From assembly GCA_900095095.1 (NCBI GenBank), contig FMBT01000142.1, forward strand, positions 1 through 29,088: a stretch of 29,088 nt of DNA, written 5' to 3'. The stretch comes from Fragilariopsis cylindrus CCMP1102. Lineage: Eukaryota > Bacillariophyta > Bacillariophyceae > Bacillariales > Bacillariaceae. The position numbers and the translations under genes are program-made. Shown piece after piece: positions 2 to 24,973 of this stretch. Under the pieces are notes generated by a model, which saw nothing but the letters and a program-made list of their open reading frames with translations, was not told where the DNA came from and did no database searches. The stretch's first letter is position 1, and each line of letters begins with the position of its first letter.

Positions 2-1243
2 CAATTGATGGGTTGTATGCCTCCAAGTCAAGCTCATCATTTACCTGCACCGTACAGAGGGTTGATGACAGATCCTGACTCTCCAATCATCGATTTTTAT
101 CCACAGTCCTTCGTTGTTGATATGAACGGAAAGCGGTGGCCATGGGAAGCGGTAACATTATTGCCTTTCATAGATTCGCAACGACTAGTCGAGACTACCT
201 CTAGGATTGACCAAAGTCAGTTGACACAGGAAGAGCTCGAAAGAAACGCTACGGGGACTGCTGTCGTCATAACGCACGATCCTATGCATAGTGAAACTGT
301 TCCGGGCGTCGGCAAGAGCGAAATATTTCAAGATATTGAATCTTGCACCGCAGTTACAGTCCCCTTCGAGCAGACCGCTTTAAACTACGCGCATGACATA
401 ACACCAGTTTTTAAGCCAGAAATTAAGACCGGAACCAAATTCCCACAGCCAGGCTTTTCTACTCTGCGAGATGCTCCAGTCGAAACTCTTTTTCGCAGAA
501 AGCTAGGCATCAATGTACATGGCGGTAAAAGTAGATACAAAACAGCTTGTCTAGAAATTTCTAGTCTTATGCCGCCTTTACCACCAGTTGAGATGTTAGC
601 TCCCAAGCTAATCGGAACTAGTGTTTTTGTTAACTATCCCTACTTTGTAGAAGCTCTTGTAACTGCTGTATCAGATGAACGATTTACTGTTCGGGGTGAG
701 AACGAACCTAGAAAACGGACTGAATCAGAGACGAATCAATGGAAACTCCAACGAGACGGTATGATTCGACGAGCGGAAGTTGGAGAAGGATATACTGGTA
801 CAGGTGGATTAATAGTACCCGAAGATCAACCCATTACTTTATCTGTACGGCCATTTCAAGACTTTGTTACAACGAAGAGCGGCCAAGTTGTCAAGTCCTT
901 TGCATTGTTTGAACTTGAAATCCCGTTGATTTCAACCTTCTGGACTCCTTCACAACCCGACCCGAGACTTAGAGGTATACCTTCCCGGTTGGAAAAGGAT
1001 GCATATGAAATCGCTATGTCGAAAAAGGGAAATGATACTCTATTAAGTAAAAGGTCAAAATCAGGAAAAGGAAGCACCAAGCGGCGTAAACTATTCCCTG
1101 AGAAATCAAAATCTCAAAAAATCTCTTCATTAAATGGGGAAAAACTTGGTATCAATGGGGGGTCGACATTGTCGACAGCCAGCTATTCCAGTCTTCATTC
1201 CGGACCTAGGAAAGGCGAAAAGAATCGAAGGTTCTTCTCAACT
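2..1243 (+). CDS. XRN1: XRN1-type 5'-3' exoribonuclease, 3' part only (5' end outside window)
   Basis: XRN1 enzymes degrade decapped, 5'-monophosphorylated RNA in the cytoplasm. The frame is open from base 2, so the catalytic N-terminus lies upstream of the window. The visible start holds the conserved block that closes the XRN catalytic core: LMTDPDSPIIDFYP (about 77-118) followed by LLPFID (about 161-178) and LTQEELERN. At about 601-670 comes KLIGTSVFVNYPYFVEALV, which resembles the D1 domain of XRN1 and argues for XRN1 over XRN2/Rat1. Recognisable similarity fades near base 1010; after that the protein is a Lys/Ser-rich linker. The later XRN1 domains (KOW, winged helix, SH3-like) are not seen, so the tail is short for the family. 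No stop codon separates it from the proteasome subunit downstream. The 1243 end is an arbitrary boundary just before a possible internal ATG. Family assignment is firm; the true 3' end is not known. Confidence 0.82.
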
Positions 1244-2427
1244 ATGCCTTCTAGTTTAACTCACCAATTGATGACTGATATTGTTCCAGGTCATGTTTCG
1301 CATTTACTGCCACTGCATTCATCGTTACCGCACGATTGGCTCCTCTTGGGCAATTTAGCCTCTATCGCTCCCTCTTCTAAACGATCCATATCCCCGCTAC
1401 AGATGATCGAAAGACCAATGAAAATTGATACGAAGAAGCCAACGTATTCAAGAAGTGCATACTCGAAGCTTTGTCCAAAAAGCATTGGATCTCGAGGGCG
1501 TTTGTTTGCTACAGGCTTAGCCTTGGCTACGTTCTTTTGGAATCCAATCAATGCCGCCCAAGAAGTGAATCCGAAATGTATGCCATTCGTCAGGAATCAC
1601 CGTGTCGCATCTTGTCTCCACAAAGACACAAACTTTCCAGACGACTCAAAACCATGGACTATTCTTCGTGGGGGTGACTATGAAAACACTGCTGATTCTT
1701 TTATGCCATCGCAAAGATCTCCACCGCCGTTGGAGTTTGCTCATGGAACTACCACTCTTTCGTTTGCATTTCAGGGCGGTATTATTGCCGCTGTTGATTC
1801 TCGGGCTAGTTTGGGATCATTTGTCGGGTCCAAGACAACACAAAAAGTCCTACCTGTTAGTTCTCATATTTTAGGTACGATGGCTGGTGGTGCAGCTGAT
1901 TGTCAGCATTGGATTCGTGCACTCAAGAAGAGGCCCTTCTGCACGAATTGACCGAAGATGGACGTAGGATGAGCGTAGCGCGTGCCTCTCGTATACTGGC
2001 TAATCACCTATATGCGCTTCGTGGATACGATCTGTCTGTTGGAACCATGATAATGGGATACGATGACCATGGCATCAACAGTAAAGACGATCACGATACC
2101 AGATCATCAACGCCATACATATACTATGCTGATAATACAGGATTGCGTATTCAGGGCGACATATTTGCCGTTGGTTCCGGTAGTACCTTTGCTTTGGGGA
2201 TTCTTGATACAGAAGAGAATAGATATAATTTGAGTGTTGACGAAGCCGTTGCCCTCGGTATCAAGGCAATTCGGCATGCTACTTTTCGGGATGCATATTC
2301 GGGGGGTTACATTAATGTCTTTCTAATTACACCCAAGGATGGCTGGAGGAAGGTCTATACTGAAGATATAGCTCGAAATCCAGAGATTTGGAAGGCGCTG
2401 CAAACAGAAATAAACGAAAATTCCTAA
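1244..2427 (+). CDS. PSMB5: 20S proteasome subunit beta type-5 (frameshifted; N-terminus continuous with XRN1 frame)
   Basis: Beta-5 is the chymotrypsin-like catalytic subunit of the 20S proteasome, made as a precursor that cuts itself between Gly(-1) and Thr1. The cleavage site HGTTTL is at 1742-1759, with Thr1 at 1748. Counting from Thr1, the active-site residues Asp17, Arg19 and Lys33 are present, and Met45, Ala49 and Cys52 (GTMAGGAADC) are the beta-5 signature of the S1 pocket. The frame changes by -1 between about 1922 and 1931; the second half, from ALLHELTEDGRRMSVA onward, is in another frame and keeps GSGS (Ser129 region) and FRDAYSGG (Asp166, Ser169). The stop is at 2425-2427. Start codon is uncertain: in-frame ATGs at 1244, 1403 and later would give propeptides of 168, 115 or fewer residues, or the protein is made as a fusion to XRN1. 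The propeptide is not conserved. Confidence 0.93.
1922..1933 (+). other. Frameshift site in the proteasome beta-5 gene
   Basis: Upstream conserved sequence (GTMAGGAADCQHWIRAL) is read with codons starting at 1898, 1901 and so on. Downstream conserved sequence (ALLHELTEDGRRMSVA) is read one base back. A single base missing in the AAGAAGAGG stretch would explain it. No slippery heptamer of the X-XXY-YYZ type is visible. Confidence 0.85.
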
Positions 2428-6894: not shown

Positions 6895-9800
6895 ATGAGT
6901 CGATTCTGGGCAGGAGATTCTTCGTCCGACGATGACGAGTCTGACGATTCCTCATTTTACTCGTCCGACGACGACGATAACCGTGCCGGAGCCGGTGCTG
7001 GGAACAAATGGGTAGACTTTTCCGACAGTGATTCTGATGACGATGAAGCTAGGGTTGTTAAGTCTGGCAAGGACCGTGCACTTGAAACCTTCCAAAAACA
7101 GATCGTTGCAATCCGAAGTGCAATGAGAAAACGTGATTATTACATCATCCAAACCGAGTTCGATGAGCTCGCAAAAGCTATGGTGAAAAATAAGAAGGTT
7201 TTACAGGCTGGTGTGCCTCGTCCCTTAGTCAAAATCCTCGTGGATTTGGAAGATACATACATCCCAGAACGTTTAACCGACAAGGCAGCCTTTAAAAAGC
7301 TGTCGGCCCGTCAGGGTAGATCCTTGAATCGGATGAAACTCACGTTGAAAAAACACAACAAAGCCTACGCGGTTGTGATGGATCATTACCGTAAAAACCC
7401 TGACGACGACAATGATGATGATGATGATGTGGATTTAGCCGGTGACGGAGGCGGCAATGATTCGGATAGCAGCAGCGGAAGTTCGAGCTCAAGTAGTAGT
7501 TCCAGCAGCTCCTCTTCGAGTTCTTCCGACGATGATAAGGTAAGACAATTCAAAGACAAGTGGGACATTTTCGATTGAGTTGAGTTGCGTGTGTTTTTCT
7601 TCTTTCTTCAAGGTTTTGTGTGACTTTGCTTGGTTAATTGTTAATTTATTCAAATTGAATAAATGTATACTGATTGATTGTAAAAGTTAACGCAAAACGT
7701 ATTATCATAATGATCGCCCTTTCAACCCAGTTACATTTTGTACGCTGGGTTCGAATTCCTCGTTTCCGATGTCTTCGCTCGGGTTCTATGCTCCACTGTA
7801 TTGTCGCTGTCAAAGCGGCAAGGAGACGAGCTTGTTGCGATGGATGAGACTAACTATATACCAAATTTTTGAGTGACGATACGATTAGAAAAAAATACCA
7901 TGTGGTATGGCTTCTATTCATTCATAAATCAATCTTATTAACTAACCCACTTTTTCTATAATTTTCTTTCTAATTACCTCTGTGTTCTTTTCTCATACGA
8001 CGTATAGAACTCGGATAGCGATTCCGACAATGATTCTGGCGGTTCGGATAGCGACGTCAACTGGGACGTTGAGGATGCTGACTCGGATTCTTCCGACGAT
8101 GAAGGTGATGGTTTGGGTGAACTTAAGGGTAGAGCAAAATGGCTCAAGAAGGCAGTTGTTATCAAGAAAAAGAAGAAAAAGGATATTACCGAAGACGAGG
8201 AGGGTGCCGCTGAAAGCAAAAAGAAAGAGATTAGCAGCAAGAAGGAGTCAATGGTTTCTTCCAAAGATCACGAGGCAATCCGTGCTCCGAAATCGGTGAT
8301 ACCGGTAGAAGGTTTAACGGCAGCTTTGTTAAACAGGAAGGTTCAGGAGATTGCATCTTCACGTGGACGTCGCGGAACCGATGCTCGACAACTTCTTCGT
8401 CAATTTGAGGGATTATCCCGCCTATCGATGCGATTCGGTCCCCGTGTGGAAGTTCCTATTTTGATGTATGTTATTAGTGCTCAATTTTCTTTGCAACGAA
8501 CGATGGATGATTACATGGATACCGCCACGTGGAGATCATGCTCGACGTACCTAGAACGTATCTCTAACGTCATTGTCGACGGTGGGTTCAAGTTGGGTGT
8601 AGAAACCATTGATGAGGCTGATATGATCTTGGGTGCAGGAGGTGGCAACGCCAAACGTATGAAAGGTATGAAAGCAGCGGCTATGGGCGTCGGTGGAGCC
8701 ATGGCGGCAGTCGCAGCCGACGAAAAATTCATCAATCCACACACTAGTGAGGCAGAAACCGAAGATGAACGAGACGAACGGTTGCGTGTTGAAAAGGAAG
8801 ATGCGATGACCGACGATGAGAGAAAGACTATCCCCGTAGTTGGATCTCTATCCATGCATATGTCGCGCTCGAAGAGGAGTACACCAAGAGTCTACAAAAA
8901 ATTTCGCACCACACGCAAGAGTATGTAACGCGACTACGGGATGAATCAAAACTAGTATCTCTTCTTGGCAAGACCCAATCTTACTTTGAACGCGAAGGTA
9001 TGATCAATGAAGCCGCCCAAATGGCACAACTTCACATCGAGCACATCTATTATCGTCATGATTCAATTGGACGACAGGTGGACAAAGCTGCTGAGTTTTA
9101 TGATAAGTTCGGCGAGGTGGCTATTCTCCATCCTGTTTGTGTTACTAAGCATGCTGCGACTGGTACTGCTATCGACACTGCCACAACGCATCCAGCTGCT
9201 AGCTTGGGCAAACCTGTCTTGGATGATGCAGCCTCGGTTGCTGAGAATACGGATTACAGTGCACTGGTGGGAAGACTGTGCACTTACATATACAAACACG
9301 GAACCGACGTAGCCAAAAAACGGTCCACTATTTGCCATGTTTATCACCATGCTCTTCATGATCGATTCATCGAAGGACGTGACTTGTTGCTTATGTCCCA
9401 CATTCAGGAAGTTATCTACGATGTGGAAGATATCACAACTATGATCATGTTTAATAGAATGATGGTCCAATTGGGTATGTGCGCATTCCGTGAGGGTCGT
9501 ATTTGGGAGGCCCATCAGTGTCTGACTGAAATCTGCAGCAGTAGAGTTCGTGAATTGTTGGCACAAGGAATGAGTATGGGTCGTTACAGCGACAAGACAC
9601 CTGAACAAGAAAAGGCCGAAAAGCGTCGCCAGGTACCGTATTATCAGCATATCAATTTGGATCTGCTAGAAGGTTGTCATTTGATCAGTGCTATGTTATT
9701 GGAAATTCCCAACATCGCTGCAGCGTCGGTGAGCGGTGGTGTTGATTCCCGTCGACTTCGTCCCATTTCTCGTTCGTTCCGCAAGTACCAAGACATTTAC

Positions 9801-10547
9801 AGCCATCAAGTGTTTACAGGCCCGCCTGAACAGACTCGTGATCATGTAATGCGTGCTTCCACTGCTCTATCGAAGGGTGACTGGAAGACATGTGTCGATT
9901 TGTGTACTTGTTTGGAAGTTTGGGACCTAGTTCCCGGAGAGGGATCAGCCGAAGGTATCAAAACCATGCTTGCATCGAAAATCAAATTGGAGGGACTACG
10001 TACCTACCTGTTTGCCTTTTCACCTCAATACGAATCACTCTCTCTAAGTCAGCTTTGTGCGATGTTTGAGATGAGCAAGAACGAAGTTCATAGCGTCGTT
10101 TCCAAGATGATCATTAACAGAGAATTGTTAGCGTCTTGGGACCAACCGACTGAAACCATTGTCTTGCGCAAAGCGGATCCTAGTCCAGTCCAATTGATGG
10201 CACTTCAATATTCCGAAAAGGCTGTTCATTTGGTAGAAGCCAACGAACGGTTGTTGGATGCCTTTACCGGTCGTAGAGACGAATGGAGAGGCGGACGAGG
10301 AGGCGGCCGTGGTGGTCGCGGTGATGGTGGTGGAGGCCGTGGTCGAGGCCGTGGTGGAGGACGAGGCAGTTATAACAATCAAGGTGGATACAATAACAAT
10401 AATGGTCGTGGTGGAGGTGGCGGTCGCGGAGGAAGAGGTGGACGTGGTCGAGGTGGTGGACGCGGCGGTCGTGGAGGAAGAGGTCGGGGTGATTACAATA
10501 ACCGATCCAATAACCAAGGGTATGGACAGCAGAGATACAGTAATTAG
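6895..10547 (+). CDS. EIF3C: Eukaryotic translation initiation factor 3 subunit C (two exons, one frameshift)
   Basis: eIF3c (yeast NIP1) is a core scaffold of eIF3, which recruits mRNA and the ternary complex to the 40S ribosome in the cytoplasm. Exon 1 (6895-7539) starts MSRFWAGDSSSDDD, the usual family opening, and has the N-terminal helical domain. Exon 2 (8008-10547) contains the eIF3c N-domain blocks EYTKSLQKISHHTQEYVTRL and KRSTICHVYHHALHDRF, then the PCI/winged-helix end YESLSLSQLCAMFEMSKNEV and VLRKADPSPVQLMALQY. The tail from about 10273 is about 90 residues of Arg-Gly-Gly repeats with Asn-rich spacers, an RNA-binding type of extension. A long acidic/Ser insert (about residues 165-260) spans the intron. 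The frame slips by -1 at about 8857-8865: VVGSLSMH is in one frame and VALEEEYTKSL in the next. Total about 1060 residues, somewhat above animal and yeast homologues. Identity is firm. Confidence 0.96.
7540..8007 (+). other. Intron of the eIF3c gene (468 bp)
   Basis: Donor GTAAGA directly after the codon AAG (7537-7539), acceptor TATAG at 8003-8007; phase 0. Both flanks code for the same acidic Ser/Asp-rich linker, so splicing rejoins like with like. Reading through the donor instead adds 12 residues (VRQFKDKWDIFD) and stops at 7578. A T-loop-like GGTTCGAATTCC (7748-7759) does not form a tRNA arm. Confidence 0.88.
8853..8866 (+). other. Frameshift site in the eIF3c gene
   Basis: The conserved eIF3c sequence moves from the frame of codon 8857-8859 (CAT) to the frame of codon 8862-8864 (GTC), a -1 change. 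One missing base around ATATG would restore continuity. Both sides match the family, so this is a break within one gene. Confidence 0.85.
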
Positions 10548-20881: not shown

Positions 20882-21001
20882 CATAGATTTTTAGGATACA
20901 AAAATCGAAGACGAAGAGTGCGAAATTTGCTGAAAGAAGATATTGCTCGTCGACGAAGAAAAGAGGAAGAATATGATCGGGAGCGACGGGTAAAAGACTA
21001 G
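20405..21001 (+). CDS. Hypothetical protein with RVxF-like motif, poly-Gln and basic C-terminus
   Basis: 198 residues from ATG 20405. Not recognised. The N-terminus (ILIGAFSYCSAVLFATN) is mildly hydrophobic. At about 20562-20610 comes HRSVRFSNIPIVNIIPLSP, in which RSVRF fits the PP1-docking pattern [RK]-x-V-x-F and resembles a short motif I recall from many diatom-specific proteins. The middle is acidic and Ser/Thr rich; a Gln/His tract (about 20798-20878) leads into a strongly basic end (NRRRRVRNLLKEDIARRRRK), which could be a coiled or nucleic-acid-binding helix. An opposite-strand frame (20335-20637) is a shadow. Confidence 0.6.
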
Positions 21002-21791
21002 GGAAACCAATGCACTAATATTATAAAACCAGGTTTGTTCGGTTCCTTTAGTGCTGTTTCTTCGATCCTGTTTCTACGGCATTTAATGTCATTCAATTTA
21101 TAATAAACCATGTTGTACGATGATCAGAGGAACATCCTATTGATTGATCGCTATTATTTTCATTAGAGCGATCGCATCTTTTTGTGTTGTTAGCTAGGCA
21201 TATTTGTTTTGATCAAATAGAAGCTATAATTCATTCAAGGGCGGTACATAATATAAAATAGGTAAAAGTGCTCTATCGCTCAAGTATTTTTTATTTTAAA
21301 GAGACTATATTATATTATAGATTTAGAGTACAAACTCTCTTGAAAATTTATTTCAAATGATTAAAGTTGACTTGACATCAACGTTCAGTTATACTATATC
21401 ATTTGCGTAGATAGACAATAAGCTTCTTTTCTCTTGTATCCAAGTAACTAGAAAAAAATAGATACATGCTATTGTATCGTTTTGTATCTATATCCTCCTT
21501 AGTATTGTTTTCGCATTTGAGGCTCGTAAATCATCCATCGTAAATCGTCTGCATCTTGGAGTTTTTCTTGCCACCGTGCATGTTTGATTGATCCGTTAAA
21601 AACGAAGCACCGAAAAAAGTGTTTGAAGGTTTTTCTTTCTGATCCATCGTTGGTCACAACACAATTTTCAAATAGAACAAGGGCGTAGAAAGAATTCGAA
21701 TTAGAAAGATATAGTAGAAAATCCTTCATAAAATGTGACATGATCGTTTGATTTGTAACGTCTTATTGATACCATTACAATGATCTTATCT
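21002..21791. other. Convergent region, gene at 20405 / ADAT3
   Basis: 790 bp between two stop codons. Mostly AT-rich. A leftward 80-codon frame (21499-21741) lies just beyond the ADAT3 stop and is listed separately. Confidence 0.5.
21499..21741 (-). CDS. Possible small protein (80 aa) downstream of ADAT3
   Basis: ATG (21739-21741) to TAA on the strand of ADAT3, beginning about 50 bp past the ADAT3 stop. The composition looks protein-like (SFYALVLFENCVVTNDGSER, KHARWQEKLQDADDLRWMIY) but I know no family. It may be an exon of a larger transcript, part of the ADAT3 3' region, or chance. Confidence 0.3.
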   Translation of the reverse strand: MSHFMKDFLLYLSNSNSFYALVLFENCVVTNDGSERKTFKHFFRCFVFNGSIKHARWQEKLQDADDLRWMIYEPQMRKQY

Positions 21792-23329
21792 CTAAGCCGA
21801 TAAATTACGGCGATATTCAAAGGCACGGTAGTTATGATTGGTCCCAGGTAAATGGTGAACACCGTGTTTCGATATACCTTGTCCCCATATGGCGTTGTCG
21901 TTCGACTCATCATGACTTGTTGGGACAAAATAAATCAATCGCCGCACTCGAGAATGCAAACATGCCATAGACTCTTATTGGCCATTCGTGTAATGGAATA
22001 ATGCACGTTCCAACCAAAAAAGAAAAAGCAATAGTCAGTCATCGTCAAACAAAAAAACAAGATGGAATGTCGGTAAGTCAATCATCGCGTGAAAAAATAG
22101 TATGAAGGTAAAGTTCATTAATCTTCATTCGTTGCATAGCGATTTTACTAATGATCTGTTTTTTGTTCTCCAATTAATATAAACTTACCGAATATATTTG
22201 GTTCGTAGAAGCAGTATACATCATATCCGGTGCAGAGATATTGTCGCCTCCTTCGATCTGGTTGTTGCCTCTCCTCGTTTGTGACAAATCCAGGAACAAT
22301 ACCACTCACATTCGTGCCATCGATGGACGTCGAAGATGAATCCTCGACGGAAACACTAGCCTCACGCTCACGACGACTAACATCTTGTATTGCAAGAAGA
22401 ATGGGAGTAGCGAGGGGGTTATTGTCCAACAACGAAGATGAAGATTGATTGTGCTGTTGCTGTTTCCGTTCTTTCTGAGATATACTGACGATGTCAGGAT
22501 GGTTATTGCTTTCTTTGCTATCAATTTTATTCTCAGGATCTTTGGGGTTATATTTTGGATTGACAATGATGACGGATTGCGTCGAGATGGAACGGTCCAT
22601 GAATTCTATAATCTGATCTTGATCAGATTCCGACAAAGCTATCTGTTTTCGTTGGTATTCATCGAATTTGAGTGGATAGTAATGGGTAGGCCAGATGGAA
22701 TTATGTTCCTTCCATTCCTGTTCCGATCGAGGTTCGTATTTTGGCACAATCACAGAATACAATGGTCCAAATTCGCGAACAGTTGGATGATTATCAAATG
22801 TTACTTCCTTCGTCGCAGTTAACGACTGCACCGAGTCGTCACCTGAAGACGGGATCAGTCGTGAATTGTGTGTACTAATCAGGAGTTCCAGAACAAAACT
22901 CGATTTGAGCCGTTTGGTTGGTCTGGCAAGATTATTTGCGTCCTTCTCATCACTTTTATTTGACGTGACAGTATTCGACAACGGGAGGATATTTGTTGAC
23001 GCTGTGCATCTCCTCACACGTTTCAAATGAGACAATCCATCTTCGAGGGGTAAACTCAATGACAATTCCTTCACAACTCGACTACAAGCCTTCGGTTTAA
23101 CTTGTATACAAAGTGCATTGACAAATCGTACGTCGTCGTTATCGTTATTATTATCTCTCGGCGAAAGGATTTCGACGATTGAACAATTTTGATCGTTTCG
23201 AAAAACGATGGTATTATTGTTCTCGGTTCTGCTTTCAATACTGGGCGATGTAGCGTTAATATCACTCTTTACCGACACCAAAGACTGGAACTGCTTGTGA
23301 TCATTGAGATCGTGACATTTGTCGTCCAT
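21792..23329 (-). CDS. ADAT3: tRNA-specific adenosine deaminase subunit 3 (ADAT3/Tad3), two exons, zinc ligands missing
   Basis: ADAT3 pairs with catalytic ADAT2 to convert adenosine to inosine at tRNA position 34. Exon 1 runs 23329-22189 (ATG at 23327-23329), exon 2 21973-21792, with a 215-bp intron; the join is in frame. The N-terminal half is divergent and low-complexity, but PLYSVIVPKYEPRSEQEW and NSIWPTHYYP match the region before the deaminase domain. The deaminase fold follows: SVIIVNP, NPLATPILLAIQDVSRRE, YLCTGYDVYCFYEP at the exon end, then SMACLHSRVRRLIYFVP and LPGTNHNYRAFE in exon 2. Typical ADAT3 has His in NPLxHA and PCxxC before SMA; here they are Thr, Asn and Glu, so no zinc ligand remains. 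Gapless alignment around these sites supports real substitutions. The domain ending after NHNYRAFEYRRNLSA is normal. Confidence 0.88.
21974..22188 (-). other. Intron of ADAT3 (215 bp)
   Basis: Donor GTAAGT after TTCG (exon end at 22189) and acceptor AATAAG before AGTCTATGGC (exon 2 from 21973). The donor leaves one base of a codon and the acceptor supplies two (G+AG), restoring the frame that aligns with yeast and human ADAT3 without a gap. A pyrimidine-rich stretch lies about 50 bp before the acceptor. Confidence 0.8.
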
Positions 23330-23664
23330 AATGGTACAATACTGTAATGAACCTCTCAAAGCTCCAAGCTCCTTTTTTCCATTTTGTCTTGGTTATGAAG
23401 CAATTCTTATTTCATATGAATATTGTAGGCCGATAAATATTTTTTCAGTCCTGCTTAATTTTTACTAGCGAGAAAACACGTGGCTACAGCGCTTGAGTCA
23501 TGAGTATTAAACTAAACTTTTAAACTTTCAAACTAATGTACTGCTGTTGAACACAAACGATAACTCTAGCTAAAGCATCGTCTAGTCCAGCTAGAGCTCA
23601 GAGCTCCAACTAATACGAAGAAGCAAATTGTTCATTATATTTGCCGTCTGTTAGAAGTGTTGAA
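23330..23664. promoter_or_regulatory. Shared divergent promoter, ADAT3 / DUF1365 gene
   Basis: 335 bp separate the start codons of the two opposite genes, the shortest divergent gap in the window, so promoter elements are probably shared. A short direct repeat AGAGCTC (about 23592 and 23599) stands out. No TATA box is clear. Confidence 0.5.
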
Positions 23665-24973
23665 ATGATGGATCAGAAGAATTCAACCTTACTGGCCATT
23701 GCCTTCTTCCTATTATCGGTGGTCGTTCTACTTTTTCTTCTGTTTATTGCATTGCCGTTGATATCAGCATTTCTTGCTACATGCCTTGCCTACGCGTATC
23801 ACATATCATTGACAAGGAATAAAAATGAAGGCGGACAATTTGGGCGTTCGATGATTAATTCTGCCTTATATACCGGTCGTGTCTGGCATACACGGCTACA
23901 TCCAAAGAAACATGCTTTTACTTATCCAATTTTTATGTTTGCGTTGGACCTAGAAGAGCTAGCTGAATTCCGAAATACACTTTGGCCTCTTTCGACTTGG
24001 TTGGTCAAATTTCGAGAAACTGATCACCTAAAAAACGGAGAGGGAATAATGGGGAATAATAACCAGGACAGATCAAGATATCACCTCAATCGCACGAAAA
24101 CAAAACCAACTACAGCAGTGACAATGCCATGCTAATAACAATAACAATGACAATAACATAAATGGTACTGTTGCTGTCCTTGAACGGACATCCATCGGTG
24201 ATAGAATAATGCGTCTAGTTGCAGAAAAAACGAACAGCAAATTCCAGCCTACACTTCAAACGCATCGTGTTATGATCTTGACTCATCTTTGCTACTATGG
24301 TTACAACTTTAATCCAGTTTCCTTTTACTATATTATCGATAAGAAGTCTAAAAATAATAATGATATCGCGGCAATTGTTGGGGAAGTTTCGAACACGCCA
24401 TGGTTGCAGCAATATTGCTATGTATTGCATCCTGATAGTATCGACAAAGTAAAGACAAATATTCAACATGATGACGACAATGATGATGATGATGATGATG
24501 AGCAAATGAAAAAAAAAGTTGAATATTCATTTCCTAAAGCATTCCACGTATCCCCTTTCATGGAAATGGACTATTTTTATGATTGGAGCTTCATCGGTAT
24601 TCCTGGTGCTGTTACCACATCGGATTCATCGGATACGAATGCTACTAACATTAAGTCATCGAAATCTGTAACAGTTGTGAATACATTAAGAAGACGCAAC
24701 AACAACCGAATTGAATTCACAGCCAAACTAATTATGGAAAGTAATCCCATCACACCCTTCCGAGTTGCGAAGCAAATGATTATTTTTCCAGTATATTGTA
24801 TGATAATACAAATATGGATCCATTATCAAGCTATCTTACTCTTTTTAAAAGGTGTTGTGTATATTCCTCACCCCTTAGGAAGCGAAACGGCAGCTAGCGC
24901 TATCATTGCAAAAATAATGATCCCATTCTTTGTGATACAAGATTATTTCAAACCAAAGACGAAGTCAGCATAA
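23665..24973 (+). CDS. DUF1365 family membrane protein (one frame break)
   Basis: ATG at 23665 (MMDQKNST). A long hydrophobic stretch (LAIAFFLLSVVVLLFLLFIA, about 23690-23810) anchors the N-terminus. The DUF1365 (PF07103) blocks follow in order: YTGRVWHTRLHPKKHAFTYP, FMFALDLEEL, FRETDHL; then, after the break, RVMILTHLCYYGYNFNPVSF, EVSNTPWLQQYCYVLHP, SFPKAFHVSPFMEMDYFYDW and the C-terminal hydrophobic part IPHPLGSETAASAII. The frame changes by +1 in an AAT/AAC-rich tract (24119-24160). DUF1365 genes in bacteria sit beside cyclopropane-fatty-acid-synthase and flavin oxidoreductase genes, suggesting a role in fatty-acid modification; the reaction is not established. Asn and Asp insertions (about 24470-24500) are typical of this genome. 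Ends TAA at 24971. Confidence 0.88.
24119..24160 (+). other. Frame break in DUF1365 gene, in an AAT/AAC tract
   Basis: Upstream frame ends TAVTMPC-stop at 24133-24135; the downstream frame opens after TGA at 24119-24121 and reads ANNNNNDNNINGTVAVLERT. One extra or two missing bases in the overlap would join them. Microsatellite slippage or a consensus error is likely. Confidence 0.65.

Follow-up and report, generated by a model that had tools for sequence, protein, structure and literature searches.

The window analysed here, a 29,088-nucleotide stretch of the Fragilariopsis cylindrus CCMP1102 assembly (GCA_900095095.1, contig FMBT01000142.1, positions 1 to 29,088), carries on its minus strand a two-exon gene that reads as an orthologue of ADAT3/Tad3, the partner subunit of the tRNA adenosine deaminase ADAT2. 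On the opposite strand and divergent from it lies a region (23641-24973) with a DUF1365 domain in frame 24209-24973. Elsewhere on the plus strand, the window holds an eIF3c-like gene in pieces (8113-10547), with eIF-3c_N and PCI domains and a Gly/Arg-rich C-terminus, and a region (5-2427) in which the helical and D1 domains of Xrn1 share an open frame (5..1951) with the beginning of a proteasome subunit. This subunit continues in another frame (1900-2427), and the region contains either adjacent genes with introns or one fused reading frame. The features of the ADAT3 gene are as follows:

23329..21792, minus strand: ADAT3/Tad3 orthologue, two exons, spliced frame of 440 aa
22189..23329, minus strand: exon 1, residues 1-380 and the first base of codon 381
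21974..22188, minus strand: putative intron, GT...AG, 215 bp, placed by frame and homology
21792..21973, minus strand: exon 2, from the second base of codon 381 through residues 382-440 to the stop
22189/21973, minus strand: modelled exon junction, TTCG of exon 1 joined to AGTCTATGG
22408..22406, minus strand: codon ACT of Thr308, at the site of the zinc-binding His (mouse H223, yeast H216)
22400..22402, minus strand: codon of Ile310, in place of the inert Val (mouse V225, yeast V218) or catalytic Glu
22198..22196, minus strand: codon AAT of Asn378, in place of the first Cys of PCxxC (mouse C289)
22189 and 21973..21972, minus strand: codon GAG of Glu381 (G in exon 1, AG in exon 2), in place of the second Cys of PCxxC (mouse C292), spanning the junction

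Exon 1 contains the N-lobe, with HLKR at residues 101-104, followed by the first part of the pseudo-deaminase domain, and exon 2 carries SMACLHSRVRR, TNHNYRAF and a short C-terminus. The spliced reading frame is uninterrupted over its 440 codons. The 215-bp intron proposed in the first-pass annotation fits this open frame as a GT-AG intron (22188..21974), and we infer that the gene is spliced as modelled.

That annotation had also named the gene an ADAT3/Tad3 homologue, which comparison with the PDB bears out: the protein matches five distinct sequences at E <= 1 (phmmer), with a best E of 2.1e-9, all five being of the ADAT3 type and none ADAT2 or TadA. Four of the five carry such a name, namely yeast Tad3 (7bv5, E 7.7e-8) and three entries called 'inactive tRNA-specific adenosine deaminase-like protein 3' (7nz7, from mouse, 9hmm and 7nz9). 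The top match is 8aw3_3 ('Deaminase, putative', E 2.1e-9), which we take to be T. brucei ADAT3 because its residues fit the numbers in the relevant passages of PMC9643335 with a constant offset of 4. The score against the PDB chains comes from the C-terminal deaminase half. HLKRVRR (residues 101-107) is aligned to the HLKR of the mouse, yeast and T. brucei chains as weak separate domains (i-E 1.1e3, 38 and 0.085, respectively); HLKR is described as a tRNA-binding motif of the N-lobe in parts of PMC7713142.

A Pfam scan of the diatom protein returned zero family matches at E <= 10, a silence that would fit a deaminase domain that has lost the motif residues dominating such profiles. The protein has the same domain order as mouse (7nz7), yeast (7bv5) and T. 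brucei (8aw3) ADAT3, with the HLKR motif in the N-lobe, the EP...SMA..HSRVRR block, the His that acts in trans at the active site, the NH loop and no catalytic Glu. Those three proteins keep the His and PCxxC; the diatom protein has other residues at each of the three side-chain ligand positions, and a shorter tail. The sequence evidence supports an ADAT3 orthologue without the three zinc ligands, and we filed the gene as a variant rather than a canonical ADAT3 because the zinc triad is absent.

The zinc ligands of mouse ADAT3 are H223, C289 and C292, with an inert Val225, in the sections of PMC8216470 that treat the site. To place these positions in the diatom protein, ungapped blocks of mouse, yeast and T. 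brucei ADAT3, as printed by HMMER, were scored with the ligand columns left out. The His block (13 scored columns) reached 17.0 at NPLATPILLAIQDV, with the next places at 3.0 (an overlapping register) and 2.3, and shuffles of residues 241-367 reached 17.0 in 1 of 1000 cases. The PCxxC block (32 columns, those of the two Cys excluded) scored 98.3 at residues 364-395, with a next best of -6.0. Both scores stand well above those of other places, so that the alignment is not due to chance. It puts Thr308 at the His and Asn378 at the first Cys, both within uninterrupted exon 1, and Glu381 at the second Cys, with a codon that spans the junction; all three substitutions, including the dependence of the third on splicing, had been read from the DNA in the first-pass annotation and stand. 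The catalytic Glu is likewise replaced by an inert residue, Ile310 being at the place of mouse V225. In aligning the protein to yeast Tad3, phmmer instead pairs the His region with IDGTNV, so that Gly stands where the His would be; this register is also without His, and NPLATP beats every other place in the block test.

The ADAT3 frame is open on three contigs, that of the window (C772), C439 and C350. C439 is identical to the window over the 5301 bases compared and probably represents the same haplotype, C772 having the look of a redundant contig. C350 is probably the other haplotype, differing from the window by three substitutions in the coding sequence (two synonymous and one, Ser331Pro, outside the site) and one in the intron. 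Both encode the same residues as the window at the three ligand sites, which answers the concern that resequencing might restore the ligands. By hand count, turning ACT into a His codon takes at least 2 base changes, AAT into a Cys codon at least 2 and GAG into a Cys codon at least 3 (at least seven in total), which makes sequencing error not credible as an explanation. PCxxC is also absent from the three minus-strand frames of 21000-23600, read straight through. That the losses are an artefact of splicing or assembly could be argued from the second Cys site, which spans a predicted junction, but two of the three losses fall before the splice donor, within uninterrupted exon 1, and the other contigs agree; we regard such an artefact as highly improbable.

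A fourth zinc ligand is given by the C-terminus in the proteins in which zinc has been seen, D348 in mouse ADAT3 (passages of PMC8216470) and C322 in yeast Tad3 (passages of PMC7713142). The diatom protein has 8 residues (EYRRNLSA) after Phe432, the last aligned Phe, without Asp or Cys among them; in the mouse chain 15 residues follow this Phe (302 of 317), in T. brucei 28 (341 of 369). With this 3' end, which is predicted and may be followed by a further exon, the fourth ligand and the cap would both be missing, and with them the entire metal site. A structure model of exon 1 alone, made without an alignment, gave no usable fold (mean pLDDT 29.5).

Among the tRNA-facing residues, His387 is kept and corresponds to T. 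brucei H300 and mouse H298, a conserved ADAT3 residue in the ADAT2 pocket that sits 9 residues past the first PCxxC position in mouse and diatom alike; it is this His that ADAT3 reaches into the pocket of its partner, according to parts of PMC9643335. Asn426-His427 is kept as well, corresponding to the tRNA-contacting N331-H332 of T. brucei, with T. brucei H333 replaced by Asn428. Over the 32-residue block the diatom protein has 15, 18 and 16 identities with mouse, yeast and T. brucei, and these references have 18, 20 and 20 with each other. Of the 14 columns invariant among the references 9 are kept, the five lost ones being both Cys with the intervening Met, a Leu (replaced by Cys) and a Val (replaced by Leu). 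Since block identity is near that among the references, change is concentrated at the metal site and does not reflect general decay.

A pseudogene in decay might be expected from the lost motif residues and the zero Pfam matches. Its frame of 440 codons and its splice sites would hardly be intact on three contigs, however, nor would its identity to distant ADAT3s stay near that among them with the losses at the metal site, and we give this explanation very little credence. The divergence between the contig copies is too small for a selection test. The retained tRNA-facing residues make it more likely that the fold would stand without metal and that zinc would be dispensable in this lineage, as the first-pass annotation had suggested.

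The assembly gives strong matches to silicon transporters (27 matches, best E 1.1e-226), a family associated with diatoms, in agreement with a diatom host. ADAT3 is normally a single-copy gene. Genome searches were run exon by exon and the best candidates scored. The full protein gave 7 matches at E <= 10 in the 67.9-Mb assembly, six of them exon matches on the three contigs and one a chance match (C168, E 0.67). The deaminase profile PF00383 gave 17 matches, all 17 of which were translated and none of which reads as ADAT3. Two are the N-terminal half of ADAT2, named by its PDB match; the others, going by their motifs, we take to be tandem dCMP-deaminase-like (4), TadA-like (2), further dCMP/CDADC1-like (3), RibD-like (1), guanine-deaminase-like (2) and PyrR-like (2), with one other short match (C62). 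With PF14437, 13 of the 14 matches fell at places already found with PF00383, and the last, on C91 (E 1.0), was rejected, its frame reading by eye as an unrelated AMP-binding ligase. The second copy that the first-pass annotation advised looking for was thus not found in the assembly by the full-protein or the PF00383 search, and the gene is probably the only ADAT3 of the diatom. Relatives were also sought in viral contig and genome contig collections, with the protein and the ADAT3 block alignment, and none was confirmed, from other diatoms or elsewhere.

Two other groups of deaminase-like proteins from this genome deserve mention in their own right. L022 and L023 (C577 and C59), presumably similar to plant PyrR, read by eye as a RibD/PyrR-like protein whose deaminase domain is seemingly without zinc ligands, with YAKDA for PHAE and LEPISGRRGE for the LEPCCHYGK of the RibD-like L008; they form a second family in the genome with a seemingly zinc-less deaminase domain. 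In L017 (C422) and L018 (C159), dCMP-deaminase-like domains stand in tandem, sharing a frame on C422 and split over two on C159; the upstream one looks inactive (CDAATNA and KHPTSDC, against THAEVNA and LFPCENC downstream).

The putative partner is present in part. The N-terminal half of ADAT2 lies in one copy at C593:59430-59928 (L021), where the contig end cuts it after RHSEIVAID, and its top PDB match is 3dh1, tRNA-specific adenosine deaminase 2 (E 1.8e-8). Its C-terminal half, with PCxxC, was found neither via the DNA at the contig end (five other matches, each of at most 57 bases) nor with a 50-aa ADAT2-like consensus (7 matches, all in deaminases already identified), and the assembly therefore probably has gaps. 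This incompleteness, along with searches that went exon by exon and scored the best candidates, leaves some room for a diverged paralogue on our contigs and a canonical, zinc-binding ADAT3 hidden in a gap. The gene is however on three contigs, no other ADAT3 appeared among the 7 or the 17 matches, the tRNA-facing residues are kept and a single copy is the rule for ADAT3; a second gene missing in a gap is unlikely, and we consider the paralogue explanation decidedly so.

In a survey of tRNA genes, 63 of 2708 candidates were scored; ARAGORN, run on all 63, named a gene at each but one (L092). Among these 63, genes with A34 were seen for Ile-AAT at no fewer than four places and for Arg-ACG at no fewer than two (alleles pooled), and Ile-GAT on C419 only, a 17.7-kb contig that we take for organellar. 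A pattern for an Ile-GAT gene with the anticodon arm of Ile-AAT had 0 matches in the assembly. For Ala-AGC and Ala-GGC, exact 14-base patterns derived from the local Ala-TGC loop also had 0 matches each, which is uninformative as isodecoder bodies differ. The presence of A34 tRNA genes supports, and does not prove, a need for ADAT2/3.

Taken at face value, the locus likely encodes a working, metal-free ADAT3, probably the only one of the diatom. Its N-lobe, with HLKR, would grip the tRNA, and its pseudo-deaminase domain would pair with ADAT2 and supply the anticodon site with His387 and the TNHN loop, the chemistry being performed by ADAT2 with its own zinc and Glu. The pseudo-site of ADAT3, having lost the three side-chain ligands and, at the C-terminus, very probably also the fourth one and the cap, would be held by packing and hydrogen bonds around Thr308, Asn378 and Glu381 in place of the metal. 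Pairing with ADAT2, and folding and activity in the metal-free state, are what the sequence would lead one to expect, and nothing in the role of ADAT3 (tRNA binding and completion of the pocket) clearly requires metal.

Experience with other ADAT3s speaks against this proposal. As reported in the sections of PMC7713142 on ligand mutants, the C322S/H216A double mutant of yeast Tad3 loses stability and is insoluble, as are V218E with C-terminal truncations and the Cys256 and Cys241 mutants of S. pombe, and the metal is judged critical for the stability or folding of Tad3, a functional zinc-less form being hard to obtain. Yeast Tad3 changed at the C-terminal ligand alone keeps its zinc and is expressed normally (same sections of PMC7713142), and mouse ADAT3 without its last five residues is soluble with ADAT2, though not once V225E is added (passages of PMC8216470). 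HAX and PCXXC are described as rather conserved in 81 ADAT3 sequences, from a starting set in which 125 of 151 came from Ascomycetes (PMC7713142, in part). The insolubility of the yeast and S. pombe ligand mutants and the change of H333 to Asn428 are among the points that we count against a working metal-free ADAT3. T. brucei work, as cited in a passage of PMC6751630, has ADAT3 helping to coordinate a single zinc ion, which is the opposite of what we propose.

The main rival is that zinc has been relocated, with Cys366, Cys373, Cys385, Glu381 and perhaps a His binding the metal. Cys373 and Cys385 stand where the reference ADAT3s have Val/Val/Leu and Leu, respectively; Cys366 has its counterpart in a Cys of both the yeast and the mouse block and, 12 residues before the first PCxxC position, matches S. 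pombe Cys241, which is proposed as the last ligand in part of PMC7713142. With Thr, Asn and Glu in the three ligand positions, the site would nevertheless be a poor one for zinc, and no known zinc motif was recognised by eye; we hold relocation to be unlikely and retain the metal-free ADAT3 as the preferred reading.

Two further known systems come close to such a protein. One is the T. brucei ADAT2/3 with a single zinc, reportedly obtained by Spears in 2011 through an engineered mutation of ADAT2, where ADAT3 was proposed to take part in holding the zinc. It likewise raises the possibility that one zinc per heterodimer suffices, by an engineered change in ADAT2 rather than, as in the diatom, a natural loss in ADAT3. 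The other is the zinc-less pseudo-deaminase domain of plant PyrR-type riboflavin proteins, which shares with the diatom protein a deaminase-fold domain without zinc ligands but belongs to a different family and is not a tRNA-editing partner subunit. No natural zinc-less ADAT3 is reported among the entries listed from the open-licence literature, and single exceptions may be in print; it is in any case a variant of a known family.

We lean, with some reserve, towards the view that diatoms possess an essential, active ADAT2/ADAT3 with a single zinc, whose ADAT3 is naturally zinc-free and uncapped, so that the conserved metal of ADAT3 would be a replaceable folding staple and not part of the mechanism. 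Such orthologues can be missed by deaminase profile scans, as the zero Pfam families at E <= 10 warn. Why a catalytically dead ADAT3 keeps its zinc site from yeast to mammals becomes a directly testable question, as a natural zinc-less ADAT3 would allow one to ask which substitutions replace the metal and whether a one-zinc heterodimer edits all tRNAs.
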